The notes below the pieces were generated by a model. The model ran no database searches. It worked only from the letters and a program-made list of their open reading frames with translations, and was not told where the DNA came from. The position numbers and the translations under genes were made by a program. From assembly GCA_018398585.1 (NCBI GenBank), contig JAGTTD010000011.1, positions 4,277,001-4,341,000 of the forward strand: a DNA stretch of 64,000 nt. Direction: 5' to 3'. Positions within the stretch are counted from its first letter, which is position 1. Each line of letters begins with the position of its first letter. Source of the stretch: Simmondsia chinensis. Lineage: Eukaryota; Streptophyta; Magnoliopsida; Caryophyllales; Simmondsiaceae. Of the stretch, positions 30,927-64,000 are shown one piece after another.

Positions 30927-31041
30927 CACTTTGAGGTCAAAGTTTCTTTGGCCTCAAAGTGTATAAATACCCCTTCATACCCTCACCATTTGGGCACTCT
31001 TTGTTTCTCCCATTCTCTAACTGGTATCTTGGGAGCTAATT
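30927..31041 (+). promoter_or_regulatory. Promoter region of the F-box-like gene with inverted repeat
   Basis: A 16-bp inverted repeat with one mismatch and a 3-base loop occupies 30927-30961 (CACTTTGAGGTCAAAG, TTT, CTTTGGCCTCAAAGTG). It is directly followed by a textbook TATA box, TATAAATA at 30962-30969, and a pyrimidine-rich start-like region around 30990-31015. The F-box-like ATG is at 31042. The element's own polypurine tract overlaps the left edge of this region. A comparable inverted repeat lies at the same place in the second Tat element (56070-56101). Confidence 0.7.
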
Positions 31042-32436: not shown

Positions 32437-34416
32437 TCCCAAAGTTAGAGGGGGCCAAAAACCACGGGCTCTCAAGCTGGTGAGAGTTTACCGCCCGTCC
32501 CTAATGTTAGGTGGGTTACACAACCTCCCCTGTGTTAGAGGAAGCCAAAAACCGCGGGCTCTCAAGCTGGTGAGATTTTACCGCCCGTCCCTGACGTTAG
32601 GCGGGACACACAACCGCCCCTGTGTTAGATGGGGCCAAATACTGCAGGCTCTTAAGCTGGTGAGAGTTTACCGCCCGTCCCTGACTTTAGGCAGGACGCA
32701 CAACCGCCCCTGTGTTAGATGGGGCCAAAAACAGCGGGCTCTCAAGCTGGTGAGAGTTTACTACCCGTCCCTGACGTTAGGCGGGACGCACAACCGCCCC
32801 TGTGTTAGATGGGGCCAAAAACCGCGAGCTCTCAAGCTAGTGAGAGTTTACCGCCCGTCCCTGACGTTAGGCGGGACGCACAACCGCCCCTGTGTTAGAT
32901 GGGGCCAAAAACCGTGGGATCTCAAGCTGGTGAGAGTTTACTGCCCGTCCCTGATGTTAGGCGGGACACACAACCGCCCCTGTGTTAGATGGGGCCAAAA
33001 ACCGCGGGCTCTCAAGATGGTGAGAGTTTACCGCCCGTCCCTGACGTTAGGCAAGACACACAACCGCACCTGTGTTAGATGGGGCCAAAACCCACGGGCT
33101 CTCAAGCTGGTGAGAGTTTTACCGCCCGTCCCTGATGTTAGGGGGGACGCACAACCTTCGCTGTGTTAGATAGGGCCAAAAACCGCGGGGTCTCAAGCTG
33201 GTGAGAGTTTACCGCCCGTCCCTGACGTTAGGCGGGACACACAACCGCCCCTGTGTTAGATGGGGCCAAAAACCGCGAGCTCTCAAGCTGGTGAGAGTTT
33301 ACCGCCCGTCCCTGACGTTAGGCGGGACGCACAACCGCCCCTGTGTTAGATGGGGCCAAAAACTGCAGGCTCTCAAGCTGGTGAGAGTTTACCGCCCGTC
33401 CCTGATGTTAGGCGGGACGCACAACCGCCCCTGTGTTAGGTGGGGCCAAAAACCGTGGGCTCTCAAGCTGGTGAAGGTTTACCGCCCGTCCCTAATGTTA
33501 GGTGGGATACACAACCGCCCCTGTGTTAGATGGGGCCAAAAACCGCGGGCTCTCAAGCTGGTGAGAGTTTTACCGCCCGTCCCTGATGTTAGGGGGGACA
33601 CACAACCGCCCCTGTGTTAGATGGGGCCAAAAACCGCGGGCTCTCAAGCTGGTAAGAGTTTTCAGCCCGTCCCTGACGTTAGGTGGGACGCACAACCGCC
33701 CCTGTGTTAGATGGGGCCAAAAACCGCGGGCTCTCAAGCTGGTGAGAGTTTACCGCCCATCCCTGACGTTAGGCGGGACACACAACCCCCCCTGTGTTAG
33801 ATGGGGCCAAAAACCCCGGGCTCTCAAGCTGGTGAGAGTTTACCGCCCGTCCCTGATGTTAGGTGGGATGCACAACCGCCCCTGTGTTAGATGGGGCCAA
33901 AAACCGCGGGCTCTCAAGCTGGTGAGAGTTTACTGCCCGTCCCTGATGTTAGGTGGGATGCACAACCGCCCCTGTGTTAGATAAGGCCAAAAATCGTGGG
34001 CTTTCAAGTCGGTGAGAGTTTACCACCCGTCCCTTATGTTAGGTGGGATGCACGACTGCCCCTGTGTTAGTTGGGGCCAAAAACCGCGGGCTCTCAAGCT
34101 AGTGAGAGTTTTACCGCCTGTCCCTGATGTAAGGGGGGGACGCACAACCACCCCTGTGTTAGGTGGGGCCAAAAATCGCGGGCTCTCCAGCTGGTGAGAG
34201 TTTACCGCCCGTCCCAGATGTTAGGTGGGACGCACAACCGCCCCTATGTTAGATGGGGCCAAAAACCGCGGGCTCTCAAGCTAGTGAGAGTTTACCGCCC
34301 GTCTCTGATGTTAGGTGGGACGCACAATCGCCCCTGTGTTAGATTGGGCCAAAAATCGCGGGCTCTCAAGACGGTGAGAGTTTACCGCTCGTCCTTGACG
34401 TTAGGTGGGACACACG
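32437..34416 (+). repeat. Tandem array of ~22 units of 90 bp
   Basis: The unit (e.g. GGGGCCAAAAACCGCGGGCT, CTCTCAAGCTGGTGAGAG, TTTACCGCCCGTCCCTGACG, TTAGGCGGGACGCACAACCG, CCCCTGTGTTAGAT) repeats every 90 bp, with a few 91-bp units. Each unit can fold two hairpins: CTCTCA-TGAGAG around AGCTGG, and CGTCCC-GGGACG around a TTAG-containing loop. Because 90 is 30 codons, long reading frames arise, but the 91-bp units shift them and no start is conserved. I treat it as a non-coding array inside the retrotransposon. Confidence 0.95.
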
Positions 34417-34462
34417 GTTGCCAGACCATTTTTTGCTTTCTTTTTACAAGAGACACCGAGGC

Positions 34463-35641
34463 CCCATAGTTTAAAGGTCTTGGAGCACCGAGGCCTTCAC
34501 ATTAGGTGGAAGTCAAGCGGCTCCTTCACATTAGGTGAAGGGTGACAGCCCAGCTTTTCCTTGCTCTTACTCCTCAACCTGAGCAATAAGACCAAGCCCC
34601 CATTGTTCAAGGAACTTAGAATACCGAGGCTTTCACATTCGGTGAAAGCCAGGCGGTTCCTTCACTCTAGGTGAAGGGTGACCGCCCAATTTCTTCTTGC
34701 TCTTTCACTTCAACTTGAGTAAGAAGACCGAGCCCCAATTGTCCAAGGGACTAAAAATACCGAGACTTTCACATTAGGTGAAAGCCAGGCAGTTCCCTCA
34801 CTTTATGTGAAGGATGACCGCCCAACTTCTTCTTGCTCTTTCACATCAACTTGAGCAAGAAGACCAAGCCCCCATTGTTCAAGGGACTTAGAATACCGAG
34901 GCTTTCACATTAGGTGAAAGCCAGGCGGTTCCTTCACTTTAGGTGAAGGGTGACCGCCCAACTTCTTCTTGCTCTTTCACTTCAACTTGAGCGAGAAGAC
35001 CAAGCCCCCATTGTTCAAGAGACTTAGAATACCGAGGCTTTCACATTAGGTGAAAGCCAGGTGGTTCCTTCACTTTAGGTGTAGAGTGACCGCCCAACTT
35101 CTTCTTGCTCTTTCACTTGAACTTGAGCAAGAAGGCCAAGCCCCCATTGTTCAAGGGACTTAGAATACCGAGGCTTTCACATTAGGTGAAAGCCAGGCGG
35201 TTCCCTCACTTTAGGTGAAGGGTGACCGCCCAACTTATTCTTGCTCTTTCACTTCAACTTGAGCGAGAAGACCAAGCCCCCATTGTTCAAGGGACTTAGA
35301 ATACCGAGGCTTTCACATTAGGTGAAAGCTAGGCGGTTCCCTCACTCTAGGTGAAGGGTGACCGCCCAACTTCTTTTTGCTCTTTCACTTCAACTTGAGC
35401 AAGAAGACCAAGCCCCCATTATTCAAGGGACTTAGAATACCGAGGCTTTCACATTAGGTGAAAGCCTGGCGGTTCCTTCACTTTAGGTGAAGGGTGACCG
35501 CCCAACTTCTTCTTGCTCTTTCACTTCAACTTGAGCAAGAAAACCAAGCCCCCAATGTTCAAGGGACTTAGAGTACCGAGGCTTTCACATTAGGTAAAAG
35601 CTAGGCGGTTCCTTCACTTTAGGTGAAGGGTGACCGCCCAA
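34463..35641 (+). repeat. Tandem array of ~9 units of 136 bp
   Basis: Landmark ATACCGAGGC recurs at 34621, 34757, 34893, 35029, 35165, 35301 and 35437, exactly 136 bp apart, with a variant at 35573 and an earlier one at 34485. Each unit holds three hairpins: CTTTCAC-ATTAG-GTGAAAG, TTCAC-TTTAG-GTGAA nested in GGCGGT...ACCGCC, and CTTGCTC...GAGCAAG. The TTAGG-type loops resemble those of the 90-bp array next to it. Confidence 0.95.
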
Positions 35642-35649
35642 CTTGTACC

Positions 35650-36295: not shown

Positions 36296-38751
36296 ATGGC
36301 TCCAAAACGTGCGCAGAAGGGAATTGGACGTTCAGACCGTGCTGGAGGAGCGTCTTCAGATGAGGGAATGATGGTGGATCCATTATCTCAACTGGCTCCC
36401 TCATCACCAACATCACCTGAGGAAATGGCCGTGCGTGCCCAATATCCTGATACGGCCGCGGCTCTTCCCCTAGGAAACCTTGTATCCTTACTAGCCACGG
36501 TAGAGGGAATGAGGAAATTTCGCGAAAAATAATTTTTCCCAAACGATTACGAAGTTATCGGCCCCCGGGAGAGTGACAACATTTTATACCCTCGCTCCCT
36601 CGAATTGTTTGCTGTTAGCGTGGATGCTTTGGAGGCTGGCTTACGCTTTCCCTTGCCGCCCCTCTTGGAGTGGGTTTTCAGGCAATATTCCGTGTGGCCC
36701 AGTCAAGTTACCCCCAACGGTTTTCGTAACATTTTACGGCTACCTCTTGACTTGTTACGTGGCTGGCCTGACCCCCTCCACTCGTAGCTTTGATTATTTA
36801 TTTAGGGCCAAACAAGTTAAGGGTGTTGTTAGTTTCGAGGGGAAGAGCGGGATTAAGCTTGTGGCGCTTAATCCCTCGAAGGTAAAATTTTGGCAGAATA
36901 GGTTTGTTTGGGTCAGACCTCCTAGTCCTCTAGGCGTCCCTCATTATTGGACCTCGTTGAATAAGTGCAGCGTCCCCTCCGAGCATGAGCTATCTGCCTT
37001 AGACAGGGAGGTAGTTCAGTACTTTGAAAGGGATTTAGGATCACGATACCTGGCTACCAAGGAGGTATTGTGCCAGGAGAAAGTGCTGATCCGGGCAGGC
37101 TTGTGTGCCCGACCACTTAGTGGTGAGTAACTCTTTGGGACGGCTAAGTTTTTCTTTTTTTCTTTTTTTTTTTTTTTTTTTATTATTGACCACCACTTGA
37201 TGACTTTACCTTGGCTGCTTCATTATCTCTTTTCAAGATCAGAGGCCGACATAGACATTGTAGCCCTCACAGAATCCTACCGCGAGGGGCAAAGGAAGAA
37301 GAGAGAAAAGGATGAGGGTAAGGGTGAGAGAGCCACTTGGAGGGGCAAGAGGGCGGTCACCGAAGAAGAAGGAGGGCCTCCCAAGAAGGTCACTCGATCA
37401 AAGAAGTCTCAAGCTGAGGCTCCTGCCTCAGGCGGTAGTTCGGAGGTGCCCCCTCCACCCAAGGTCGTTCCTGAGACGCCCATAGTTCAGGCGTCTCCTG
37501 CTGCTGGGAGATCCTCTTCAGTCCCTAGCGGTCAGGGAGTACATACCTCTCTGCCTCAGCAAGGCGACGGTGGGGTGTCAGCCGTACCCTGTCCCAAAGT
37601 TGTCCCAATAACGGAGCTCGTTGTGGAAGAGAGGTCCAGCATTACGCCGGCCGTTACCGTTGCTTCATCTGGGGTTACGGTGGCTGAGCCTCCTCCAACC
37701 GTGGCTATATCGACTGGGAACCTCCCTGAAGGGATAGAGGTAGGCTCATTGTCAGAAGGAGCGGAGGAGGGGAGGAGGCCCTTAGAGGTGCCAGTTGAGG
37801 TGTCAGAGCCACCATTGGTGGAGACGGTAAGGCCAGTACCCATGCCTCAGAGAGGAGGACCTCCTGTCAGGACCTCGTCCCTGCCGCCCGAATCATTCCA
37901 GGAGGCAGTGGCGGATGTACGTCCTGACATAAAGGTAGAAGTCAGCCTTCTTCCCTCCTTTCATATTGATTTGTCCGCCCCCGGGGACCTTGCTGACGTC
38001 CCTCCTGAGCCTCAAGGAGAGGCTCCTAGGGAAGAGAGAACTCCCACCGATGAAGGTGCACCGCCCGAGGGTTCTACTCGCCCCTCTCCTTGCCAAATCG
38101 TTAATGACATCCAACGTGCTGTTTTGACGGTTCTTCCATCCGAAGGCCCTCAAGTTGTGATTCGAGACACTGTAGCCACTTGTGTCGCTAAGGTAAAGAC
38201 TACATGCTATACCTTTGAGTTATTATCATGTTAACTACATGCTTTGGTATTTTATCTTTCAGGTCAGTTCTCATTCTGGCGCTATGGCCTTAGGGTGGTT
38301 CCGTGAACAAGAAGCTGCTACGCAGGAGTTGTCTCTGTCACGAGAGGAAAAGAGAAAACCAGTAGAGGCGGCAGAGAGAGCTGAAAAAGAAAAAGAGGAA
38401 CAGACCGGGGTCATGCTAAGGGTGGAAAGGGAGAAGGAAATGTTAGCGGCTGAGTCCCAGAGCTTGAGAGATGATATGGGAAAGCTGAGAGAGGAGAAGG
38501 AGGCATTAGCTGCTGAGGCTCAAGTACTGAGGGAGGAGTTATCTTCCCAGCAGGCACGGTCAGAGGAACTCCTTACCGAAGCGCAGCATGCTCGGATCGA
38601 GGCTACAGAGGTGGTTTCCCGCTTCAAAGAGAGCCTTGAGTTTCATTCCTCGACGAGCACCTATTACTGGGAGGGCTTTGCCTCAGGTCTGTCCACCTTC
38701 GCACGACGCTTAGATAGCAGTCATCCTCAGCTTAGCCGGGAATTTCTTTAA
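36296..38751 (+). pseudogene. Transposase_28-like ('putative gypsy-type transposon') spliced gene, antisense to pol
   Basis: Exon A (36296-37122) encodes the family core: SVDALEAGLRFPLPPLLEW, QVTPNGFRNIL, then FDYLFRAKQVKGVVSFEGK, NRFVWVRPPSPLG and RYLATKEVL. It has one stop (36530-36532) and a one-base shift near 36735. A GT-AG intron (37123-37242) joins in phase to exon B (37243-38192), which is proline/glutamate-rich with a basic start (REGQRKKREKDEGKG). A second GT-AG intron (38193-38262, phase 0) leads to exon C (38263-38751), a long coiled coil (LSLSREEKRKPVEAAERAEK onward). The family is known from plant Tat-type elements; its role is unknown. The second Tat element carries a diverged copy with the first intron at the same place. 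Confidence 0.82.
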
Positions 38752-39258: not shown

Positions 39259-40043
39259 CTATGCGTAGTACTTTTTGAGATTCTTGATGCTCCATACTCG
39301 GGGTACCCGAGGACCGTCTAGGCGCTCCAGCTTGTAACTTCCTTCCCCTAGCTTCTGGGCCACACTGTAGGGTCCTTCCCAATTCACGGCTACCTTGCCG
39401 GCTCCGATCCCCTGGGCCACAGTATTTGCTCGTCGCAGGGCTAAGTCCCCCACCTCTAAACTTCTCATCCTTAGGCGCTTATTCGTTGCTTTTGGGTCAC
39501 AATTTGAAGAAGGGCATCCTCCCTAACTTCGTCTACTAAATCCAGAGCGCACCTTCACTGATCTTCATTGCGCAGATAATTATAATGTTGTATGCTGTAA
39601 CTGTGTTCTCCCACCTTCACTAGGATTACGGCTTCAGCCCCATAGGTTAGCATGAATGGGGTTTCTCCTGTAGCCACACGGTAGATTGTTCGGTGTGCCC
39701 ACAGTACACTAGGCAACTCTTCCACATATCTTCCCTTAGCTTCATCCAACCTTCTCCGAAGCCCGTTGAGTATTTGCTTGTTTTTTGATTCAGCTTGTCC
39801 GTTGCTCTGAGGATAAGCGACGGCGGTAAAATGGAGAGCAATATTCATGTGTTGACAGTATGTTCGGAATCGTGGCGACGCGAACTGTGTCCCTTTGTCC
39901 GTGATAATGGCTCTAGGGATTCCAAAAAGTGTAATGATGTTTTTCCATAAAAACTGCCGCGTTGCGCTGTCTGTAATCCGAGCCACCGCCTTGGCCTCCA
40001 CCCACTTACTGAAATAGTCTATGGCTACTATCAAGAATTTTCT
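39259..40043 (-). pseudogene. Tat integrase, core and C-terminal part
   Basis: The catalytic core shows the three acidic positions: AIDYFSKWVEA, ITDKGTQFAS and NGQAESKNKQ. ELPSVLWAHRT and TPFMLTYGAEAV follow, the standard gypsy integrase signature. The C-terminal GPY-type segment lies at 39468-39259 (NWEGPYSVAQKLGEG, YKLERLDG, WSIKNLKKYY). In-frame stops occur at about 40044 and 39555. No chromodomain is visible, as expected for Tat elements. Confidence 0.92.
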
Positions 40044-40955
40044 CTACCCGCTGGCTAAGGGGAAAGGTCCTAAGATGTCCATTCCCCATTGGTCGAAAGG
40101 TATGGGGTCAACGATGGGTTGCAGTGGCGCGGCGGGAGCACGGATGAGCAATGCGAATCTCTGGCACTTATCACATTTTCGCACAAGGGTGCCAGCATCC
40201 TTCCTCAGGGTGGGCCAAAAATACCCGGCCCTTAGCGCCATCCCGGCTAAGGCTCGTTTTCCAATGTGAATCCCACATATTCCCTCGTGGATTTTCCTTA
40301 GAACGTACTCCCCTTCCTCTGGCGCTAAACATTTTAATAAGGGATGTGTGAACGACCTTTTGTATAGCTGCTGATCAATGATTGTGAAATGTACCGCGCG
40401 CCTTTTCAGCCTTCGTGCTTCTGCCTGATTCGAGGGTTTTACATCGCGAAGGATGAAGTCTAAAAGTGGACGCATCCAGTTATCCTCATGTTGTACTTGC
40501 ATTACATCTAGGGGTGCTGACTTGTCCACATACTTAACATGGGACTCGTGCGTATGGACGTGCCCGTCGAGGTTCCTTCCTCCAGTACTAGCCAAACGGC
40601 TTAGTTCGTCAGGGCGGTGATTACTTTCTCGGAAAATGCCCCGTATGTTAAAGCCTTGAAATTCGGAGACCTTGGTTCGAACCAGCTCCAAGTACCGGGA
40701 TAGGTGCGGCTCTTTTACTCCATAACTACCCGTGACCTGGTTCACCACCAACTCTGAGTCGCTTTGTGCCTCTAGGTAAGTTGCTTCGGCGGCTTTGGCT
40801 AAGTCCATGCCCAACAGCAGGGCTTCGTATTCGGTTTCGTTGTTAGTTGCGTTGAAGTGTAACCTTATCGCATATTCCGCCTGCTCTCCCTCGGGGTTGA
40901 CCAGTACTACGCTTGCGCCTCGGCCTTCTGACTTTGCAGACCCGTCTACGAACAT
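40044..40955 (-). pseudogene. Tat second (archaeal-type) RNase H and integrase zinc finger
   Basis: The frame begins MFVDGSAKSEGRGASVVLVN, an archaeal-like RNase H start with its first aspartate. NNETEYEALLLGMDLA and SDSELVVNQVTGSYGVK, with the next acidic residues, follow, then FRESNHRPDELSRLAS. This extra RNase H after the normal one is diagnostic for the Tat lineage. The integrase HHCC finger comes next (KIHEGICGIHIGKRALA, CDKCQRFA) and FDQWGMDILGPFPLASG. The frame ends at a TAG where glutamine is usual. Confidence 0.93.
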
Positions 40956-41305
40956 TTTCCGACGGACACCTCCCCAAGGGCGTCTGCTGATCCAGGTGTC
41001 TCACCCCCAAAGTCGCATTCTACCAGGAAATCGGCCAAAGCCTGGGCCTTAATGGCTTTGCGAGGCTGATAGTGTGTGTCGTACTCAGAGAGTTCAACCG
41101 CCCACTTGAGCAGGTGTCCTGAGCAATCTAACTTGGAGAGCAGCTTCTTGAGTGGCAAGTTAGAGAGTACCGTGACATTGTGAGACTGAAAGTAAGGTCT
41201 TAGCTTACGCGCCGCGGTGATCAGGGCCAAGGCGGTCTTTTCAATGGCAGGGTACCTCTTTTCTGGGTCTTTGAGAGTCTAACTTACAAAGTATACCGGG
41301 AGCTG
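40946..41305 (-). pseudogene. Tat first RNase H (C-terminal part)
   Basis: Includes TLKDPEKRYPAIEKTALAL, AARKLRPYFQSHNVTVLSN, LKWAVELSEYDTHYQPRKA and QALADFLVEC, the connection/RNase H segment after gypsy reverse transcriptase. Two stops lie near its start (about 41306-41280). The last ten bases overlap the start region of the second RNase H frame. Confidence 0.88.
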
Positions 41306-42925
41306 TCATCCCTGCCGGTCGGCTATTAACACTGCGCTCGTGGCGTTTTCTGAGATGGCCAGGTCGAGCCCTAGCTTCTCATCTGGTTCAAGGGAGGTGA
41401 TCACCGGGAGGTGCGCCAAATGTTGCTTCAGTTGATCAAAGGCTCGTGCGCATTCCTCATCCCAGAGGAAAGGTTGTTTCCCTCGAAGTACCTTAAAGAA
41501 CGGCAGAGCCTTTTCTGCTGCTCGGCTAATGAATCGATTGAGTGAGGCCATGCAGCTGGCCAGTCTTTGTACATCTTTGGGGCAGCGAGGAGGCCTTAGG
41601 TCGAGTATGGCCTGCACCTTTTTGGGGTTTGCCTCGATTCCTCGGGAATTTACAATGAAGCCCAAGAATTTTCCGTCTGGTACGGCGAACGAACACTTTT
41701 CCGGGTTCAACTTCATGTTGTACTTCCGAAGGGCCTCCAAACCCTCTCTTAGGTCGAAAATGTGGTCCAACTTACGCTTTGACTTAACTATCATGTCGTC
41801 CACGTAGACCTCCATATTGCGCCCTACCTGGGGTGCAAAAACTTTGTTGACCAGTCGTTGGTAGGTGGCTCCTACATTTTTAAGCCCAAATGGCATCACT
41901 TTGTAGCAATACGTACCCTCAGCCTTGATGAAAGCCGTTTTCTCTTCGTCAGTAGGATGCAGTTGAATCTGATGGTATCCGGAGAAGGCATCCATGAAGC
42001 TGAATAACTCGCAGCTTGCCGTGGAATCCACCAGCCTATTTATTTTAGGCAGGGGGTAAGAGTCCTTTGGGCAGGCTTCGTTGAGATCTGTGAAATCTAC
42101 GCACATCCTCCAGCTTCTGTTAGATTTCTTCATTAATACCACGTTGGCCAACCACTCAAGGTACAGTACTTCCCGTATAAACCCAGCCTGAGATAGCTTT
42201 TTAACCTCAGCTTTGATGATCTCATTGCATTCGGTGCAAAAGCTGCGCCTCCGCTGTTTAACAGGTGTCTTATCATCTCGGACGTTGAGTTGATGAGTGA
42301 TCACTTCGGGCGGTATTCCTAGCATCTCACTGGCGGCAAAGGCAAAGACGTCCTGGTATTGCCTCAAGAGCTCGCCGATCTCTTCACGCGGATGTCTGGG
42401 GAGTGAAGTGCCCAGATAGGCGTAACATCCAGGCCCCAGCTCATACTTTTCCAAAGGCGGAGGGGGAGGATGTACTTCAGGAGGGGAGCCCAGCTCGAGT
42501 GGTTCGGCTGTCATGACCGCCAAATTGGAGAAGGTATGGTAATACTCTGAGAGCGCGCCGTGCCTCCCTCGTATTGTCATGATGCTCCCAGTGTCTGCTT
42601 CAAACTTCATTGCCAGGTGGTAGGTAGATACCACTGCCTTCAAACGATTCAGGGAGGGCCTCCACAAGATCACGTTGTAGGAAGAGGGAGCGCAAATAAC
42701 AAGGAACTCTATCTTGACCGTCCGTTGTTCATCTTTGTTTCTAAAGGTGGTGGGCAGCGTTATCCTGCCCTGCGGCAGGACGAGTGCTCCGGTAAATCCC
42801 ACGACGGGATACGGTGCGGGTGATAGCGCGCTAAGCGGCATTCCTATTTTGTTATGGCATTCCAAGAACAAGATGTCTGCGGAACTACCCTGGTCGATCA
42901 GAATTCTAAGATGTCTGCGGAACAA
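41306..42925 (-). pseudogene. Tat protease (C-terminal part), reverse transcriptase and RNase H start
   Basis: A continuous frame of about 540 codons. It opens in the protease with LRILIDQGSSADILF (catalytic D in DQGSS), then VILWRPSLNRLKAV. The reverse transcriptase runs from RRSFCTECNEIIKAEVKKL through WRMCVDFTDLNEACPKDSYP, FMDAFSGYHQI, MPFGLKNVGATYQ and the catalytic EVYVDDMIVKS to FLGFIVNSRGIEANP. RNase H begins near ACARAFDQLKQHLA. The reverse-transcriptase frame itself is intact; the upstream frame change at 42870-42945 separates it from gag. Confidence 0.95.
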
Positions 42926-42945
42926 CCTTGGTCGATCAAAATTCT
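42870..42945 (-). repeat. 38-bp tandem duplication across the protease active site
   Basis: The 38 bases starting AAGATGTCTGCGG at 42870 are repeated at 42908 with a few differences (ACTACCCTGG against ACAACCTTGG). On the minus strand this duplicates the ILIDQG-SADIL active-site motif. Since 38 is not a multiple of three, the upstream protease start and the downstream protease are in different frames. Confidence 0.92.
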
Positions 42946-43425
42946 ACGTACCATGTGTTTGCTGATGTCGGCCGTAACCACGAGAGGCTCCTCTTGCCGA
43001 GCGTCCACACCTTGGGCGTCTTCTCTAGTGAAGCTAATACACCGGGGTGCATCCCGGGCTACCTCCGTTCCCCCGTTCGAGATTTCTGTCCCCTCCTTTG
43101 GCGTGGGGGGAGCAACCTTTGGGGCGATGGTGGCAATGACTTTGGGCACCCTGCTCTTGGGACCTTTTTCTTCATCGCTAGTGGTTCGAGCTTTCCCAGT
43201 CTTCATCTTTTTTAATGTAGCATATTCTTCCCACTGGCCGGTACGTTTGGCTTCCTTGAGGCCAAAGTTCAAGCCCCGACAGTCTGCCGTGTCATGGGTA
43301 GAGACCTGATGATACGAACACCAGACTGGCCTGCTGCCGTCAGATGGAGTAGGGTCCTGGTTTTTGGATGGTCCCTTCGTTTTTACCTCTAAGAGTTGGC
43401 GAGGCACAGGCTGCTGGTTCTGCAT
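42898..43425 (-). pseudogene. Tat gag C-terminus and protease start
   Basis: The frame includes VWCSYHQVSTHDTADCRGL, the CxxH...HxxxxC motif that replaces a normal zinc knuckle in many Tat gags. A charged linker and DISKHMVRRILIDQG, the protease beginning, follow. It ends in the 38-bp duplication. Confidence 0.88.
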
Positions 43426-43455
43426 TCGGAAAGTGGGTGCGTTCGGCTTCCTGGC

Positions 43456-44362
43456 CTATCGGGCACTACCCTGGGGTGGCCTAGGGCGGTCTCTTGGCCC
43501 TAGAGATGCCTGAGCCACTTCGGTCCTGGGTGTTATCTGCATGACATCCTCCGCCAGGATATACTTGTTGACCTTCCGCCATAATTCGTCGACGGTGGAA
43601 GGCGGCCCCTTTGCCAATGCGAATTTAAAGTTGTAATTCTGCAACCCATTAATAAAGGCGGTGATGGCCGTTTCATCAGACAAGGTAGCGACATCGATCA
43701 TGGCTCGCGTAAACCGCTTCACATAACTCCTCAAGGGCTCAGTTTCATACTGTTGCAACTTGAGAACATGCGCCGCCGTCCTCCTTCTTCTTTTATTATT
43801 AATGAAGTGCCGAACGAACCTTTCGGAGAGGTCCCTGAAGCTATCCACAGAAGAATTTGGAAGGGAGGAGAACCAATTTTATGTGACCCCCTTTAAGGTA
43901 GCAGGAAAACATTTACACCAAATGTCCTCCCCCACATCTTGTAGATACATCCGGGCCATAAAAGCTGGCCAAATGATCTTCAGGGTCTTGAGTTCCATCA
44001 AATAGATCGATGTTCGAGACTTTTACCTTCCCTGCCGAAGCTGACAGAATCCAGGATGAGAATGGTGAGTAAGTCCCTGGCACGACGTAGGATGTGGCCG
44101 GTCTAGGGGCACTCCAGGAGTTCCTCCTGGCATGATTAAGATAAGCGCTTGACGTAGAAGCAGTAGCCCCGCTTAGGTTTTGAGCTTGGGTATGGGGGGA
44201 TGCCGTGGTGGAATGATCAGGTTCTGGGACATATTCTGTATTGGCGGGTGTATGTGAAAAGAACTGGCGTATTTGCTATTGGAGCTGCTCAAACTGGCCC
44301 TGGGTTACGTAATCGGTGTTGTAGGGCCCCCCGTGAGCGGTAGATCGACTGGTGTTTGACAT
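43456..44362 (-). pseudogene. Tat gag
   Basis: Starts at ATG 44362 (MSNTSRSTAHGGPY), 40 bases inside the 5' LTR. A TAG interrupts the N-terminus after QFEQLQ. The gag core is present: LFDGTQDPEDHLASF, ARMYLQDVGEDIWCKCF, NWFSSLPNSSVDSF (after a stop), ERFVRHFINNKRRRRTAAH, LRSYVKRFTRAMIDVA and FINGLQNYNFKFAL. The DP-DHL and W-LP blocks are the usual gypsy gag landmarks. It would form the virus-like particle core. Confidence 0.92.
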
Positions 44363-44401: not shown

Positions 44402-44712
44402 TGTTTCGGGATTTTTTGGTTGGGTTCTTGAGGGTAGAACTAGGCTCAAGTTCCTTGGCTTTCTCCTGGGGTCTCTTCCCCTATTTATAGGGGATTAAGT
44501 GCGTGGGTAGCAAGTAACGGGGGTAGGGTACCGCCTGGTTCCCTCAGCCAATAGGGGTATTGGTGATTTCTAGAGGTGAGATCACTTAGGTGGGGGTGTC
44601 CAAGGAGGCGGTGGTGTCCCCTGGGCCGTATACCGCCTGGTGGCGGTTACGCAGGGGGGCGGCAATGGCTCCTGGGCCCTGTACCGCCTGGGTGTAACTT
44701 TTGTATTCATAA
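44402..44712 (-). repeat. 5' LTR of the Tat element
   Basis: A 311-bp partner of 30554-30916, lacking one copy of the internal ~52-bp unit. Its outer end reads TTCATAA where the other LTR has CTCATCA, so the terminal CA has become AA. TSD GTTTC follows at 44713-44717. Confidence 0.92.
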
Positions 44713-53071: not shown

Positions 53072-53798
53072 TAGGGGTGTAAGCAATCTAAGTTGCTCAT
53101 GAGTGGTTCGATTAAAACTCGATTCGAACTCGAATAAACCGAGTTCGAGTATCAAAACATACTCGATTAATAAACGAGTACGAGTCGAGTAGTGAAATAT
53201 TCGGCTTGATACTTGATTAAATACTCGAGTTGATACTCGATTAAATACTTGAATCGATACTCGATTAAATACTCGACTCGATGCTCGATTAAATACTTAA
53301 CTCGATACTCGAATTGGCACTCGACTCGATACTCGACTCTTATGAAGTAGTTCTTGTGTATTATTTTCTTTTGAAATGGATGACTTATGACATCAATAGT
53401 AGAATAAAATGAGGAAGATTGAATTCCTTATAAAAGGTGACATGTTACATTTGTGGTAAAGTGAAAGAACTTGTATTTGGTTTGCTTGTATTTTTTGAAA
53501 CTTAAGTTTTGATGCATATCTGCTATTAATATGTCAATGATTTATGGTTGTATATGTTAAAATATAGTATGAGCAATAATTGAGTATCCAAATTAAGTAT
53601 ATCTAATATTCAAGTGTATGCAATGATATTATAATAGAGATAATTTGTTAAACGTTTATATGCACAATGAACGTTCATATTATAATCGAGTTCGAGTACC
53701 CGAATAATTAATCAAGTTCGAGTCCAGTACTGAAATACTCTGCTCGACTCGACTCGACTCGACTTGGCTCGATTCGACTCGACTCGACTTCACCCCTA
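53072..53798. mobile_element. Non-autonomous hAT-type element rich in CTCGA
   Basis: A 727-bp element with ends TAGGGGTGTAAGC and, read from the right, TAGGGGTGAAGTCGAG. It is flanked by GTCTAAAT (53064-53071) and GTCGAAAT (53799-53806), 7 of 8 identical. Both arms are filled with ACTCGA/TCGAGT repeats, giving long irregular inverted arms around an AT-rich centre. No coding frame. Confidence 0.85.
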
Positions 53799-55556: not shown

Positions 55557-56057
55557 TGTTTGGTGAGCATATATTATTGTTTTCAATGAATTTGTTTGGG
55601 TAGGATAAGCCAAACCCAAACTCTATTATGACAGGGCTATCGCTCCCTTGTCTCTCTTTTGGAGGCCTCTTGGTGTGTTTTCATCTTCCCTCCCTTGTGA
55701 GGGGAAGTCGCGTCTTCTTATAGTTCTCCCCTCTCCTTTGGGCGAGTATGTAAGAATTGGGGAAACTTCACTTTTGCCTTTCTTTCTTTTCACTTGCTTC
55801 CCCTCCTTTCTTCGTTGACTGCTTTAGGTTAGGAAAGATATTTGTCTTCCCTCCGTAACTTGTATTCACCCTATCGCATATATACCTTTGATCAGTTCAT
55901 CATGCTCGCCCATGACTCTGATTTATCGATCTTCTACAAACACATCTTCATTTTGACTAACTTATTCGCTACTGATATGGGCCTATAGATCCTCTTCATA
56001 CACGCCTTCTCCTCATCCTCTTCTGGGTACTCGTAAGGCTAGATTTATTTATAACCA
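55557..56057 (-). repeat. Probable 3' LTR of the second Tat element
   Basis: The inner edge ACCA (56057) is followed by ATTAGCCCCTCACTC, which parallels CATCA|ATTAGCCCCCCACTT at the inner edge of the first element's LTR. No second LTR is available, so the outer edge near 55557 (TGTTTGG) is uncertain. Confidence 0.4.
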
Positions 56058-56069
56058 TATTAGCCCCTC

Positions 56070-56101
56070 ACTCCCTGAGCGACCTTGTTCTGTCAGGGAG
56101 T
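56070..56101 (+). promoter_or_regulatory. Inverted repeat next to the polypurine tract, second Tat element
   Basis: A perfect 9-bp inverted repeat, ACTCCCTGA ... TCAGGGAGT, about 11 bp inside the LTR. Its place matches the 16-bp inverted repeat of the first element (30927-30961), although the sequence differs. Confidence 0.6.
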
Positions 56102-56400
56102 CTAACTACAAATGTATATGTTATATAGTATAATTTTGTATGACCTACAAAAACTTTTCTCCTTTGGTAGATATAGAAACAGGGGGTAAAGAGATTAATC
56201 AAGAAAATATTGTAAAATAATTAAGGACATTTTAACTTTTTACACAAATAAATAGACTATATATAATAACCAACACATATTTTTCCAAAATCCATTACGG
56301 GATAAGATATATTTTTTTATATTCCCCACATGGCTTTAGTTTCCCCTCTCGAAGTTTACAATTTCGTCCGACATAAGAGAATAACCTTTTCCTTTCAGGA

Positions 56401-58350
56401 ATGGAGTTTTTCCCTAACAATGTCATATTTCAAAATATTTTCTTGGCCTCCTGCCAAGTCTATAGTGAAGTTTCACACCCTCTCTAAGCCCCTCGTGAAA
56501 GAACAAGCTCCAAACTCTTTCTTTAGCCTATAGATGGCATTTTCATTCAACCCATATTATGACCCCCTTTTGGCGAACCTATCAAGTTACAATTCTTTTA
56601 TGATGACAATTTTCTCCTTGTGTACCTCCTGGGTCACTGGAGTCTCTGATAGATGGTAGAAAAATTGTGGGTACTAGTAGTGGATTAGTCTTATGTTATG
56701 ACAATAGTCTATTGTTCCACAAGGTTGTTGATTTATAATTCAGCTATCCAAGTCTACCTTCCTGTTGATCTTCTTGCAGAGCTGCATTTAGGGGTATAAA
56801 TGAACCGAACGTTCAATGAACTGCTCGTGTTCGAAATCGATTATGGCTCGTTCGTGTTCATAATTAGGGCTCGATAACTTATCGAACCGAGTTCGAGCAG
56901 GCTCGATAAGCTTAACGAGCCGAGTTCGAACAAGGGGGTGCTCGACTTGTTAATGTTCGTGAACAGTTTGATAAGAGCTCAATAAGGGCTCGTTAAGAAC
57001 TCATTAAAAGCTTGTTAAAAAACTCGTTAAGAGCTCGTTAAAGGCTCGTTAGCAGTTAATATTAACTCCAAAATAGTTCGATAATGGCTCAATAATAACT
57101 TGAATAACTCGATTTGATAGGGAGCTCGACTCGATAATAAGCTCGTGTTTGTTATGAGCTCAATTTCATTCGATAACGAACTCGGCTCAGCTTGATAAAG
57201 AGCTCGAATTGGTTCGATTAGCTTAACGAGCCGAGCCGAGCCGAGCCGAGCCGAGCCTCGAGCACAACAAAATCTTAACGAACCGAGCTTGAACAAGTGG
57301 TTGGAAAGCTCGATCAGAGCTCGGCTGGAGCTCGAGCTTGATAAATCTTAACAAACCTAGTTTGAACAAGGGGATGCTCGATTCGGCTCGGCTCATTTAC
57401 TCCCCTAGCTGCATTATGCTGGGAGTGCTTTGAATATTATATTCGGCTGTGTAGACAACTACATCACTTTCCCTTTTAATTATTCCATCTTTTTGTTTGT
57501 TTTAACATCAACCTAAGCCTTGGTGAAAGCTTTTGGTAGGGTGTTAACTGGTACTCTACCTATTCTTTAGAAGATGGGGTATGTTCATATAAGGGAGATA
57601 TTAATATGGGAGGAAGGACCATAAACTTTGACAAGCCAGTATATTGTGATGGTAGCATGTACTTTTTGTCTTAGCGTAGTCATTATTTTATAGATGCTTT
57701 TTATTTAAATCCCTTTGTGGTGTGTTGGTACTTGTCTCGTGGAATTGTTGAAATGATGTTTTTACCATAAGAATCTATGATGAGCTCGACAATTGTCGGT
57801 CATTAGCTATTTTCTATTTTGCTATTAGTCTATGTTTGGTAGTTCTTCAGGGTTCTTCTGTCTTTTCGATCTGGATCCTTAAATAAGCAAGATGTTGGTT
57901 CTCAGTCATTATCGAAGAATATGTTCTTCCAAATGTGACAATTTTGCGGAGGGATCGTGTTGGGCAACGGGATACTTGGTGGCAGGAGAGCACGTGATCT
58001 TTTCCACTAACTTAAAAGTTTAGAGCTATTGTCTTATTGGAAAGAATCAAGGGAAGCTTTAAATCATATGTCAGCACGGATATGGTAATGGGGCATGCTG
58101 GATGCTAGTGGAGCTCCCTACACCCATGCGATGGCTAAACATCAGCTTTTGTGTTAGTACCATAGGCCTTTACGTGCTTTAAGTGTCTTCAAAAGTTGTA
58201 GTTCTCTACTTATCTTGTGTTTCCTTAGCATAGGAGTTTGTCATTGTTTGATCTCTTAAGTTTATGCTTGTTCATAAAGTTCTAGGTGTATGTTGTATTT
58301 GCCTCTTTTATGTTGTGGCGACTTCTACTTGTGAATGTTAAATAATGTTA
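56401..58350 (+). pseudogene. F-box / F-box-associated-like gene of the second Tat element, decayed
   Basis: Begins at ATG 56401 (MEFFPNNVIFQNIF). After a frameshift it gives SWPPAKSIVKFHTLSKPL, a clear F-box pattern (P-KSI-KF---SK). Near 56640-56750 comes IVGTSSGLVLCYDNSLLF, matching the VLGVQGSLVL segment and the usual GS--GL start of the associated domain. The hAT MITE at 56789-57407 interrupts it. At 57606-57790 it resumes with FDKPVYCDGSMYFLS, stop, RSHYF and NPFVVCWYLSRGIVEMMFLP. This aligns with FLMDHVCLHGELFFLS and RPYIVRWNTETGVV of the first element. Later sequence is too decayed to end precisely. Same strand and relative position as the first copy. Confidence 0.62.
56789..57407. mobile_element. 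Non-autonomous hAT-type element inside the F-box-like gene
   Basis: A 619-bp element with ends TAGGGGTATAAATGAACCG and, read from the right, TAGGGGAGTAAATGAGCCG. It is flanked by a perfect 8-bp duplication GCTGCATT (56781-56788, 57408-57415). Its body is rich in GCTCGTTAA/AGCTCGA repeats and GAGCCGAGCC runs. The minus-strand frame inside it is a product of these repeats. Confidence 0.93.
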
Positions 58351-58544
58351 GAATGAAGTGAGTTGATGTGCGCTATTCACGTATTAAAGTTAGCTATTAT
58401 GTGGAACTATGGGATTTGAATATCTTCATGCTATAACTTATTTTCATATTTGAGTTTTTGATTAAATAAGTTTAACTACTCCATGTTATAATTTCACATC
58501 AGTTTCACACCTTTCATTAAGTAATGATTAACTAGTTAATCAAA

Positions 58545-60010
58545 TGCTCGTGGATGAACAAGCTCAGTCCTTTAACTTCTATTTTCATTATAATTACCAA
58601 AGTTAGCTGGTGGGCAAGCATGTTCATTCCCTAACTTGTATTCACCTTATAACTCTCAATGCTAGCTGGTGGGGGACAATGTCCAGCCGCCAGCTTGTAT
58701 TCGCCTTACAACTCTTGAAGTTAGTTGGTGGGCAAGCATGTTCATCCCCCAGCTTATAATCATCTTATAACTCTCAATGTTAGCTAATGGGTGAGTATGT
58801 TCAAACCCTAGCTTATATTCACCTTATAACTCTCAATGTCAGCTGGTGGCGAGCATCTCCAGCCCCCAAGTTATATTCACCCTATAACTCTCAATGTTAG
58901 CTGCTGGGTGAGCATGTTTAGCCCCTTATAACTCCCAATTTTAGTCAGTAGGCAAGCATGTTCAGCCCCCAGCTTGTATTCATCTTATAATTGCCAATTT
59001 TAGCCAGTGGGCGAGCATGTTCAGCCCCTAGCACATATTCATCCTCATATTCATCTTATAACTCTCAATGTTGGCTGGTGGCGAGCATTTTTAGTCCCCA
59101 TCTTATAACTCCCAATGTTAGCTAGTGTGTGAGCATATTTAGGCCTCAGCTTGTATTCACCTTAGCTTATATTCATGTCATAACTTGCAAAGTTAGCCAG
59201 TGGGTGAACATGTTTAGCCCGCAGCTTATATTCATTTTATGACTCCAAACATTGGCTAGTGGGTGAGCACGTTTAGCCCCCAACCATGATTCATCTTATC
59301 ACTCCTAACATTGGCTTGTGGGCAAGCATGTTTAGCCCGTAGCCCTTATTTATCTTATCACTCTAAACACTTGGTGTTGGGCAAGCTTGTTTAGCGCCGA
59401 ACCCTTATTCATCTTATCACTCCAAAAGTTGGCTAGTGGGCGAGCATATTTAGCCCCCATCCTTTATTCATCTTATCGGTCCAAACGCGGGCTAGTGGGC
59501 TAGCATGTTTAGCCCCCAGCCTTTATTTATCTTATAACTCCAAACATCAGCTGCCGAGTGAGCATGTTTGGCCCCCATCCCTTATTCATTTTATCACTCC
59601 AAACATTGGACGGTGAACAAGAACGTTTATACCCCAGCCTTTATTCATCGTCACTCTAATTATTGGTCGGTGGGTGAGCATGTTTAATCCCCCGCCTTTA
59701 TTCTTCTTACCACTCCATACATTGGCGGTTGGGTGAGCATGTTTAGCCCCTAGCCTTTATTCATCTTATCACTCCAAACCTTGGCTTGTGGGCGAGCATG
59801 TTGAGCCCCCAACCCCTATTCATCTTATCAGTCAAAACATTTGCTGGTGGGCGAGCATGTTTAGCCTTTAGCTCTTATTCATCTTATCACTCCACACAAT
59901 TGCTATTGGCAAGCATGTTTTGCCTCTAGCCGAGTTTTTTGGTGACACTTTTATATGCCTTAAGGTTGTTGTTGGGAGTGCACGTTTAGCCTCCAGCCAA
60001 GGCATTTGAT
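58545..60010 (+). repeat. Tandem array of ~23 diverged units of 59-60 bp
   Basis: Units read like GGCTAGTGGGCGAGCATGTT, TAGCCCCCAGCC, TTTATTCATCTTATCACTCC, AAACATT, with many substitutions. The core can fold as GGCT..GGGC ... GCCC..AGCC. It occupies the place of the 90- and 136-bp arrays in the first element, between the F-box-like and Transposase_28-like genes. Confidence 0.88.
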
Positions 60011-60711
60011 GACGCTTCATATGCCTTAAGGTTTATCTAATTTTATATAATAATGGCACCTTGCAATCATGATTTCACTTGAAACTCATCATGACACCTC
60101 ACAGCCTCTGTAAACCTTTACTTAACACGTGCCCCTACTGGTCGTTTAATTGGGACATATCCTAGCCACCAAATTCAAATCTTGAATGGATCTTGACCGT
60201 TGAGGTTCCTTTTTAAATCTTAAGTCTCCCCCTTCTTTATTCTTTGCACCATTTTAGTTCTCCTCATCATCCCTTCTCTTTTTAAATCTAGCCAGAGCTG
60301 TTTTGACCAAAAAATCTGCTAAAATAGTGTCTTGTGCTTCGAAACTTGTCTTGATCTTCAACGTTAGTCCGAAAGATAGTCTTACTCGGTTAGGTTTTCA
60401 CATATATCATTCTATTTTGACTTTAAACGTTCCCTTACTCCTCTTTCTTTTCTTTTTTTTTTTCCTTAAACAAAATTTCTTTTTATTCACTTTCAAGCTA
60501 GGTTTGTGCAAAAATTTCGAAGGACAGATGCGTTTCACTTCCTGCTCATGTTTCCTTTGATCTCTTCTTTTGTTTAGGTTTCCCTTCCCTTTACGATAGT
60601 TTTTTTAGTTCTCCTTTTACCTGAGCTTGTGTTTTGCCTTGCTTGGGAACTTAACCCATTGGCTCATTTTCTTTTTCTCATTGAATTTCACTTTGCCGTT
60701 TTGGGCTCCTT
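60011..60711 (+). other. Leader region of the second Transposase_28-like gene
   Basis: Pyrimidine-rich sequence comparable to 35650-35952 of the first element, with TTTTTAAATC motifs near 60210-60290 as possible promoter elements. It ends TCCTTTCTTCTAG, a good splice acceptor that is now part of the LINE target duplication. No independent coding frame is supported. Confidence 0.45.
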
Positions 60712-60728
60712 TCTTCTAGGGCTCATGT

Positions 60729-62708
60729 ACAACAAAACAACAGCAACCGACCTAGTGCCTCAAGGGCTCCCCCATACACAGGGTCTGGGGGGAAGGGATG
60801 TATGCAGCCTTACCTCTTCAAGGTGTTACCCTAAAGGGAGGCTGTGTCAGAGGACCCTCAACCTGAGAAGCATAACATCAAAAAAGCATTCTAACATAAA
60901 AGCATAAAAGTATAGGAGTAAAAACAACGGCACAGAGCAAGCATAAAGAAAGCATGAGTCAGCAATAGGCGATATAACAACTCTCAGACATATCAAGTAA
61001 GCCAAGCAGGAAGACAAATAAGCCTAGGGGCACTAGTTCTAGCCGGAATATGCTCCTCTATTCTACACCGCTAAATCGGCTACCCGTATGCTAGTCCTCT
61101 ATTGAGCTTTGTCTAAGGCCATCTCCTCCTGTAGGTTTAGGTGGATGAGGTTGTGCCAGATCATCTCCATCCATCTTTTCTTTGGCCTACCTCTCCCTCT
61201 CCTCCCTAGTATAGCATGGATTTGTTCGCATCTCCTGATAGGGGCAGTGGTGGGTCTCCTCTTAACATGCCCAAACCACCGCGAATGCTGCTCCATCAAT
61301 TTATCTTTGATCAGGGCCACGCCCAATTTGCCTCTTATGACATAATTCCTCATCCTATCCTTCCTTGTGTGTCCACACATCCACCGCAACATCCTTCATC
61401 TCCGCCACCTTTAGCTTCTGTGTATGAAAGCGTTTCATTGGTCAACACTTCGCACCATATGTTATAGCTGGTTTCACTACCGTCTTATAGTATTTTCCCT
61501 TTAACTTTAACGGGAACTTTCTATTGCAAAGTACCATAAAGGCCAACCTCCATTTATACCAGCCTACTTTAATACGGTTGTTGACATCCTCGTTAATTTC
61601 GTCGTCTTATTGTACCATGGCACCCAAATATCTGAAACACTCCTTTTTTCGGTATGGACTCTGATCCAATCTTAACGTCTTCTATGGTAGTCCTGGTGGA
61701 GGTGCCGAACTTAAGTTCCATATACTCGGTCTTGGATCTACTGAGTTGTGAGCCTTTTGATTCCAATGCCCTTCTCCAAAGTTCCAGCTTCTCGTTTACC
61801 TCTTCTCGAGACTCCCCCACCAGAAATATGTCATCTGCGTAAAGCATACACCAAGGCACATCTAATGAGCCCATCCATAACTAGAATGAACAGAAAGAGA
61901 CTCAAGGCCGATCCTTGGTGTACCCCAGCTGTAACAGGGAAAGCGTCTGTCTCCCCTTCTGCTGTATGCACAATTGTTCGTGCATCCTCATACATGTCTG
62001 TAATTGCTCGGATATAGGGCGCATGGGTGCCTTTCCTCTCTAGAACCTTCCATAGGTCCTCTCTTGGCACCTTATCATATGCCTTCTCTAAATCAAGGAA
62101 AACCATGTGGAGATCCTTTTTGTCTATTCCTGTAGTGCTCTATCATCTGCCCTAAGAGATGGATGGCTTCTATTGTCGATCTACCTGGCATAAATCCGAA
62201 TTGGTTCTCGGACTCCTCTGTTTGTTGCTGTAGCCCCCTCTTTATGACCCGCTCCCACAGCTTCAAAGTGTGGCTTATCAGTTTGATACCCCGATAGTTG
62301 GCGCAGCTCTGGATGTCGCCTTTGTTCTTATAGATCGGGATTAATATGCTCTTCCTCCATTCGTCAGGCATCTGCTTCCCTAGAAGAATTTGGGTAAATA
62401 GTTTAGTCAACTAACTGATGCCCTTCTCTCCAAAGCATTTATATGCCTCTATGGATATTCCATCTGGGCCAACTGCTTTACCCCTACCTATATGTTTCAA
62501 GGCTTTCTTGACTTCGTCAGGTCTAATTCGCCTACAATAACAATAGTTGTGGTGCTCCTCAGTTGTTTGAAGATCACCTAGGGATATATCTGTATCCCCT
62601 TGTTCGTTGAACAGACTGTGGTAATAGGCTTTCCACCTAGCTTTAATTTTTTGCTTGTCCACAAGCACTTGTCCATCCTCCCCTTTTATGCACTTTACTT
62701 GATCTAAG
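60729..62708 (-). mobile_element. RTE-type LINE, 5'-truncated
   Basis: A 1980-bp insertion flanked by a 17-bp duplication with one mismatch (TCTTCTAGGGCTCATGT at 60712-60728, TCTTCTAGAGCTCATGT at 62709-62725). On the minus strand it encodes most of an RTE reverse transcriptase, the C-terminal block, a short 3' untranslated region and the conserved tail (GAGGGTCCTCTGACACAGCC ... CTGCATACATCC), ending in TTG/TTTTG repeats. It shares family with 7610-8387. Confidence 0.95.
61099..62668 (-). pseudogene. RTE LINE reverse transcriptase, broken
   Basis: Pieces in order on the minus strand: KIKARWKAYYHSLFNEQGD and GKAVGPDGISIEAYK (62668-62411); WRKSILIPIYKNKGDIQ, NYRGIKLISHTLKLWERVI and NQFGFMPGRSTIEAIHLL (62410-62093); [20 protein letters not shown] and [18 protein letters not shown] (62106-61831); and the catalytic [19 protein letters not shown] (61874-61593). 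The C-terminal RLGVA-type end with GRRGRGRPKKRW is at 61392-61099. The YADD motif and block order fit RTE elements. At least four frame breaks inactivate it; the endonuclease is missing through 5' truncation. Confidence 0.93.
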
Positions 62709-62737
62709 TCTTCTAGAGCTCATGTCCAATATATAAA

Positions 62738-63947
62738 ATGAATCTTGAAGAGGAAACTTCAAGTGCAGGTTCAAACTTTAACCATATATTAGAAGACCCA
62801 AGGATAGCCAATTGGATTTATGATATATCTCTTCCCGCTGAAGAAAATCAAGGTCCGGGAGAGGTGTTACTCACACCTTTAGTCGAAAATTTGCCTCCCT
62901 TCAATCAAAATGGACTCCATTAAAAAGTTTGTTAGTTTGATTTCTATCATTTTCATGTACACTATTTTATTTGATTACGTGAAGGAGGGTTCGAGCTGGG
63001 AGTTTGAGGCATGATGCTCGCTTGGAAGGAGAGTTACCTTTAGAAGAGGGCATTGTCGTTGAGCCTCGTAGTCAGCTTCCTATCGTCATGAATAAGACAC
63101 CTAGGGAAGTAGTGATTGGGCCAAAGTTTTCGGAGGCAGGTATTGCTCGCCCTCTTGCAACTTTTGTATCACAAGTTCGAGGGAAACAGAGATTGCCACA
63201 CTTCGTGCCAAATACTATTTTCCTAGTGATTATGAAATTTGGGGTCCTAACAAGGACGATAGTCCTCTATATCCACCCAGGCCTGGCTGTTTCCCCGTTA
63301 CTATAAATACTTTAGACGTTGGACTTAGATTTCCCCTTCCTCATTTCGTTTCTGATCTTTTGAGGTGGTATGCATTGTGTCCTTGTCAAGTAACTCCAAA
63401 CAGTTTCCGTAATATATTCGGATTCCTAATTGCATGTTTTGTAAATGGTTTTAAGCCTTCAGAAAAAGTTTTTGATTATCTATTTAAGGTTGAGCAATGT
63501 GGGAGTGTTGTTGCATTTAAGAGTAGGGGAGGGTCAGTTTTCGTCAAAACAGCCCTTCGCATGTAAAACATTGGTTGAACAAATTTATTTGGGTCAAGCC
63601 ACCCTCGTTACCGAGATACCCAATTACTTGGCATACGGTTACTAAGCAACACCAACCTGGCAAAGGCCAATTTCATGAATCTGATTTGAATATTATACTT
63701 TATTTTGATAAGGATTTCGAAGGGGATCATTTTTTAGCCACTAAGGAGTTACTCGAACAGGAAATTGTGCTTGCTAAAGCGGGGCTTAGCAAAAACCATT
63801 TCCCTGTATGTGGTCTACTTTGTCTCCTTTCTTCTTCCTTTATTTCAGGCTTACACCTTACTTACAGCTGACTTTTGTTTGTCCTTACAGTTGAGGAATT
63901 CGACGATATTGACATTGTGAGCTTTCCTGTTCGTGAATTGGGTAAGA
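62738..63947 (+). pseudogene. Transposase_28-like spliced gene of the second Tat element
   Basis: An upstream exon (62738-62920, MNLEEETSSAGSNF) is followed by a possible intron. From 63004 come LEEGIVVEPRSQLP and, after a shift near 63190, FPSDYEIWGPNKDD, DVGLRFPLPHFVSD, CQVTPNSFRNIFGFL and FDYLFKVEQCGSVVAFKS. After another shift at about 63560 come KFIWVKPPSLPRYP and HFLATKELLEQEIVLAKAGL. An intron then runs from about 63806-63810 (GTATGTGG) to about 63890 (CTTACAG), into EEFDDIDIVSF. This intron is at the same place as in the first element (ADIDIVALTES). The gene is cut by a LINE at about 63953. Confidence 0.78.
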
Positions 63948-63952
63948 GAGGG

Positions 63953-64000
63953 TCTCGACGAGACCTAACCCACCTAAACCTAAGAGAGGAGATGGCCTCA
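63953..64000 (+). mobile_element. Start of another RTE LINE fragment
   Basis: The last bases (GAGACCTAACCCACCTAAAC, CTAAGAGAGGAGATGGCCT) match the C-terminal coding part of the RTE LINE seen at 7974-8014. It is therefore a 5'-truncated LINE on the plus strand that continues past the window. Confidence 0.7.

Follow-up and report, generated by a model that had tools for sequence, protein, structure and literature searches.

In a 64,000-nucleotide stretch of the Simmondsia chinensis genome (NCBI GenBank assembly GCA_018398585.1, contig JAGTTD010000011.1, C11:4277001-4341000), referred to as a whole as the window, the region from 55.6 kb to the right end is probably an old, broken Retand-type retrotransposon (Tat, Ty3/gypsy) that lacks gag-pol. 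The F-box-like gene carried by this element (element 2) is probably an old, selected accessory gene of the lineage and not a recent capture. Element 1, which is complete and lies at 30.55-44.71 kb, served as the yardstick. The 9,990 bases directly right of the window (L031) were numbered onward in window coordinates, and searches of the plant's own genome took in 831 Mb in 35 contigs.

Element 1 comprises the following features.

30554-30916, minus strand: left (3') long terminal repeat (LTR), ending where ATTAGCCCC begins
30917, plus-strand occurrence: ATTAGCCCC edge, adjoining the left LTR
30927-30961, unstranded: hairpin beside the polypurine tract, with perfect 10-bp arms (30927-30936 and 30952-30961) and TATAAAT at 30962
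31042-32193, plus strand: F-box-like gene of 383 codons, with two in-frame stops (31072 and 31345)
32444-35644, plus strand: tandem arrays, with a 90-bp unit in 32444-34415 and a 136-bp unit in 34447-35644
36513-38751, plus strand: transposase 28 (TRP28) gene region in several frames (PF04195, E 0.00068 in an X-marked reading, below the Pfam cut-off)
39555-43878, minus strand: gag, reverse transcriptase (RT), RNase H domains and integrase, identified by Pfam
44402-44712, minus strand: right (5') LTR, matching the left LTR

The two LTRs share 284/292 identical bases in their main block, and GTTTC is present on both flanks. The minus strand encodes gag, RT, RNase H, a second RNase H (RVT_3), an integrase zinc domain and an integrase core. 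Between RT and integrase, one frame carries RVT_3 (E 4.6e-13), a second, archaeal-type RNase H, which the available text of PMC6317226 gives as a Tat feature. TRP28 is antisense to gag-pol and lies between pol and the 3' LTR, with PF04195 below the cut-off in this copy. The 136-bp array showed strong hairpin potential (mean z -3.7 and -4.6 on the two strands), and similar arrays of 127-136 bp recur in three other copies (L012, L024 and L042).

The features of element 2 are as follows, the last of them outside the window.

55557-56058, minus strand: left (3') LTR; homology to the right LTR spans 55612-56058, with the first 55 bp unconfirmed
56059-56067, minus strand: ATTAGCCCC, the polypurine-tract edge (gag-pol sense strand), adjoining the LTR
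56070-56101, unstranded: inverted repeat with perfect 9-bp arms (56070-56078 and 56093-56101) and a 14-bp spacer
56432-56473, plus strand: candidate F-box motif containing PAKS, at noise level (score 39) and kept for its position only
56610-56711, plus strand: F-box-like gene, residues 74-107 (score 67, 14/34 identical)
56788-57406, unstranded: 619-bp foldback insertion in the F-box-like gene, with AGCTGCAT duplicated at 56780-56787 and 57407-57414 (8 bp)
57430-58056, plus strand: F-box-like gene, residues 138-346, with frameshifts and stops (score 172, 63/200 identical)
58598-59931, plus strand: tandem array of a 59-bp unit with a short palindrome
60729-62709, minus strand: broken long interspersed nuclear element (LINE) on the TRP28 side of element 2, with RVT_1 in 3/3 pieces submitted
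63105-63566, plus strand: TRP28 exon (PF04195, E 5.2e-10 in 63105-63563)
approximately 68060-68492 (L031 4060-4492): right LTR, matching the left LTR

A preliminary description of the sequence had proposed an LTR edge, an inverted repeat, an F-box-like frame, a hairpin tandem array and a TRP28 gene here, in the order and on the strand of element 1. All five were present in that arrangement, with corrections to the frame and the array. A start of element 2 at 55557 is plausible. ATTAGCCCC occurs on the plus strand at two window sites (30917 and 56059), both of them LTR edges, and its complement at none. The inverted repeat is offset from the start of ATTAGCCCC by 11 bases in element 2 and by 10 in element 1; in 5000 shuffles, arms of at least 9 bp appeared at rates of 0.06% and 0.08%, and 1.2% of 9129 window positions had them. 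The F-box-like gene is on the plus strand as described but is not a single open frame: it consists of colinear pieces in several frames and is cut by the 619-bp foldback, which we take to be hAT-like from its 8-bp duplication. This foldback is rich in CTCGA/GAGCT repeats, and similar CTCGA-rich repeats are found at 53195-53790. The 59-bp array is likewise on the plus strand, but its hairpin excess was modest (mean z -1.71 on the plus and -0.31 on the minus strand over 11 stretches; -0.18 to -0.28 on the plus strand of three control regions). The LINE is flanked by a 16-bp duplication with one mismatch (60713-60728 and 62710-62725). Between the two elements, TRP28 aligned with a score of 189, against a maximum of 46 in 500 shuffles.

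The F-box-like genes of the two elements also aligned far above chance, which had been named as a check on their common origin. In frameshift-aware alignment the right-hand part scored 172, where none of 40 shuffles exceeded 48, and the left-hand part 67, where none of 40 exceeded 58; tblastn gave E 7e-9 for the element 2 region, against 0.011 for the best of 300 shuffles. When 212 segments of the window were scanned, the element 2 gene scored 152, 127, 67 and 67, and the best score elsewhere outside the gene of element 1 was 53. A profile of 17 open copies from the element-1 family was searched against 3,658 stop-to-stop segments drawn from the window, from L031 and from L034, a locus on contig 7. 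Five pieces of element 2 and three of a contig 7 relic ranked next below element 1. Singly these pieces are weak (E 0.0016-0.68, with other segments from 2.6), and each set is ordered along the profile; the weight of this result lies in the order of the pieces, not in the single scores.

At codon positions 1, 2 and 3, 109, 137 and 71 bases were identical across 234 aligned codons, the third-position agreement of approximately 30% being near the 27% expected from composition. TRP28 behaved like the F-box-like gene (46, 52 and 25 of 71). This pattern is that of constraint on the F-box-like protein. Divergence between the elements is strong, as the preliminary description had stated: third positions are near random, synonymous divergence (dS) is saturated and the LTRs share no similarity (local score 17; shuffle maximum 26). 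The ratio of nonsynonymous to synonymous divergence (dN/dS) proposed for the two window frames was not calculable because of this saturation, and it was obtained within the element-1 family instead.

The contig 7 relic (L034 11653020-11653821, minus strand) is a second old relic, 54% identical to a 50-residue piece of element 2, and was the sole other DNA match in the genome reported for the F-box-like gene of element 2 (65%). Its locus (L033/L034) was considered as a gag-pol-bearing sister of element 2 and rejected as too weak, the integrase and integrase-zinc pieces there showing 31-33% identity, approximately 5 kb away and on the opposite strand.

Within the element-1 family, the F-box-like frame of element 1 gave 1,453 candidate places; 138 of them, all with at least 70% identity, were scored, and the matched part was free of stops in 31/138, the window's own copy included. 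Twenty copies were picked for openness, and the 17 that aligned at full length without gaps were used for dN/dS. The start codon was kept in 16 of these 17, L003 being without it. Median dN/dS was 0.087 (132 computable of 136 pairs), as compared with 1.31 and 1.61 when the same DNA was read out of frame by 1 or 2 bases, and 1.17, 0.196 and 1.79 in the three antisense readings. For 19 pairs dS was 0.2 or less, and their median ratio was 0.40, as expected from decay of copies after insertion. Fourteen of the first 30 loci, picked by match length whatever their stops, gave 0.184; selecting open frames alone does not lower dN/dS.

The dS values of the F-box-like gene and integrase were nearly equal in the four pairs with dS below 1.5 (among element 1, L012, L024 and L042), and dN/dS was low in all six pairs (0.07-0.24 for the F-box-like gene, 0.03-0.23 for integrase); the two genes therefore seem to have travelled together. 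The order F-box-like gene, arrays, TRP28 and opposite-strand pol was found in element 1, L012, L024 and L042 among five surroundings read, with pol in L024 traced as far as an RT fragment. In L043/L054 (C29:31038000-31049500), TRP28 pieces come after an open F-box-like frame but lie on the other strand, which indicates a nested or rearranged element pair. The F-box-like gene of approximately 383 codons is thus kept by purifying selection alongside integrase in a large family. Protein searches showed no relatives outside this genome, and RT and F-box queries showed none in viral contigs; the collections seem to include few or no plants, which makes this a weak negative.

The edge beside the 3' LTR is also conserved in this family. 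A TATA box lies 70-83 bp upstream of the start codon in 16/17 open copies, and in 37 copies picked for TATAAAT the preceding bases form a hairpin with 16-bp arms, in which 501/592 cells were Watson-Crick pairs, 50 were G-T and 41 were neither. The hairpin of element 2 has other letters at a nearly equal distance from the edge. A structure rather than a fixed protein site is favoured because pairing is conserved while the letters change, and the hairpin may act in plus-strand priming, in transcription or in both. A reading of the hairpin as a WRKY W-box (TTGACC, present in several family copies) was set aside, since the element 2 hairpin pairs in the absence of this motif. The cells other than Watson-Crick (50 G-T, 8 A-C and 33 other among 592) were considered as a clue, through wobble pairing, to the acting strand; this was dropped, as the independent events are few and three rows are shifted by indels.

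The F-box name comes from the N-terminus of the same family. The consensus used for the motif scan is recognised by Pfam as F-box (8.9e-17). It scored 82 at the start of the element 1 frame (31042), against 41 for the next best among 4260 six-frame segments and up to 44 in shuffled windows. In Pfam at E <=1, PF00646 was found in 11/17 open copies and PF12937 in 3/17 (best E 0.0013), PF00646 being the commonest family among them. In element 2 the motif candidate, with its score of 39, was rejected as noise, and the motif regions of the two elements aligned with a score of 31, which 28/2000 shuffles reached. The element-1 family is what justifies the F-box name; element 2, taken alone, does not rise above noise here.

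Several observations weigh against the interpretation as an old, selected F-box-like accessory gene. PF00646 scored 12.9, 14.3 and 15.9 bits in the three copies with bits shown, against a curated cut-off of 20.5, and Pfam found no F-box in the window's own frames. No substrate-binding domain (F-box-associated (FBA) or kelch) was matched by Pfam in the 17 copies at E <=1, the protein had no match in PDB, and its single-sequence AlphaFold2 model was useless for the fold (pLDDT, the predicted local confidence, 36). We write F-box-like because the Pfam matches with bits shown are below the cut-off and no substrate-binding domain was recognised. As noted, one of the three antisense readings also gave a low dN/dS (0.196). 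L043 is cut or rearranged, L012 is without the edge and TATA block, and TATAAAT was not found beside the hairpin of element 2. Finally, the comparison covered only element copies, all from a single genome.

The sub-cut-off Pfam scores and the missing structural match would also suit a conserved antisense accessory gene that is not a working F-box protein, its N-terminal likeness being decayed or incidental. We consider this rather unlikely, given that the motif scores double the next of the 4260 segments and that PF00646 is the commonest family in the 17 copies. F-box genes are numerous in plants. Two independent captures of members of this large family, with the shared order a coincidence, would likewise be compatible with 63/200 identical residues, which two distant members of one F-box family could also show, the more so as the comparison covered only element copies. 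Such captures are improbable: both genes lie on the same strand, at the same site between an LTR edge with a hairpin and a tandem array, and next to the same TRP28 neighbour, and neither matches the Pfam F-box-associated domain models that an ordinary plant F-box gene of this type should match if captured.

Beyond the window, element 2 ends after approximately 4.5 kb. A matching LTR had been anticipated there and was present at approximately 68.06-68.49 kb, but the Tat gag-pol expected with it on the minus strand was not found between the LTRs: at an E threshold of 0.01, five gag-pol pieces of element 1 matched neither L031 nor the 10 kb of the window that were searched. Before the right LTR, neither a primer-binding site like that of element 1 nor sequence corresponding to the left LTR's first 55 bp was found. 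The coiled-coil tail of TRP28 had a weak match in L031 (E 0.007), where a reading frame continues from 3104. As no Tat pol was found between its LTRs, element 2 is a gag-pol-less relic. A deletion that began past TRP28, removed pol, gag and the primer site and reached into the inner end of the 5' LTR is apparently the simplest account of it. LTR divergence (Kimura two-parameter) was 0.146 over 405 aligned bases, against 0.034 for element 1, which would make element 2 approximately four times older if rates were equal. It does have the Retand/Tat trait of an antisense TRP28 gene and a tandem array beside the 3' LTR. As its own Tat gag-pol was not found, we call it Retand-type and not a proven member; what places it, putatively, in Retand/Tat is its TRP28, the order of the modules and comparison with element 1, rather than a pol of its own. 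Within the TRP28 part, a stretch at L031 ~920-2990 (window ~64920-66990) has internal repeats as well as recurring ends like GGAATTGGAATT; it may consist of one or two further insertions.

Element 2 could instead be a non-autonomous, gag-pol-less element that moved with its antisense module alone. Both LTRs flank the module with no gag-pol found between them, and gag-less Retand clusters are described in the available text of PMC11963269. However, no primer-binding site was found, nor were the inner 55 bp of its right LTR, and movement would require both; the F-box DNA of element 2 has a single other match in the genome (65%, on contig 7). We regard this origin as improbable and continue to favour a deletion relic. 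A recent capture of a host gene was rejected on the dN/dS values, the similar dS of integrase and the occurrence in a second family, so that the preliminary argument for an old, retained F-box-like gene holds on frame homology, selection and an integrase that kept in step. Elsewhere in the window, a long open frame on the minus strand at 1030-3051 resembles Ty1/copia gag-protease-integrase by eye.

For an old accessory gene of this kind, the following mechanism is proposed as the most likely. What remains of element 2 is the antisense module beside the 3' LTR, made up of the F-box-like gene, the tandem array and the TRP28 gene. In the element-1 family, an antisense mRNA would be transcribed from the TATA-box promoter beside the hairpin and polypurine tract. 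In SCF ubiquitin ligases, the F-box protein joins SKP1 and the target goes for degradation. The N-terminal F-box would accordingly bind the SKP1 of the host, and the remainder of the protein would bring a target to the SCF ligase. By analogy with polerovirus P0 this target may be a factor of host silencing or defence; alternatively, it may be one of the element's own proteins. A wider scenario, which we advance tentatively and by analogy, is that a plant F-box gene was long ago taken into a Retand-type lineage and became a permanent antisense gene with a built-in promoter by the polypurine hairpin; turning SCF against a silencing or defence factor, it might be a counterpart of viral silencing suppressors.

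Antisense TRP28 open reading frames (ORFs) and tandem arrays are already described for Retand of Tat (Ty3/gypsy) in the available text of Vicient 2025 (PMC11963269). The present elements resemble those in TRP28 antisense to gag-pol between pol and the 3' LTR, in the tandem arrays and in a long pol-3'LTR region; they differ in that the domains named in that text besides TRP28 are Smc, Mis12, mitotic checkpoint, polIII and topo2, and in that element 2 is without gag-pol. Silene Retand, maize Grande and rice RIRE2 similarly have antisense ORFs between pol and the 3' LTR, an upstream promoter of its own being reported for that of Grande; the available text of this source (Vicient and Casacuberta 2020, PMC7264820) describes likeness of their proteins only to SMC and transposase 28 domains. 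None of the main texts of PMC11963269, PMC6317226 and PMC11728184, as available, uses the word F-box, and papers that contain both F-box and Retand use the terms, in their available parts, in unrelated places. We found no link between F-box genes and Retand antisense ORFs in the literature covered, subscription papers, the Steinbauerova 2011 survey and supplements being mostly outside its scope, and an earlier mention is possible. Against the literature covered, what is new here is the F-box-like antisense gene in a Retand-type lineage. The element-1 family shares the N-terminal F-box motif with plant SCF F-box proteins but is unlike them in its antisense position within a retrotransposon, its weak Pfam score and the lack of a recognised substrate domain. 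Polerovirus P0, a silencing suppressor, is also a parasite-coded protein with an F-box-like motif, according to the available text of PMC6593998; it is an RNA virus protein, and we propose it as a working analogue only, likened by motif and role and not by sequence relation.

The antisense gene already described for Retand, TRP28, is not known to have a function. Another antisense gene beside it, with a host-like motif and selected much like integrase, offers a testable idea, namely SKP1 binding and target degradation. The antisense module would outlive gag-pol in old copies, and retrotransposon genes may be among the F-box genes annotated in plants.

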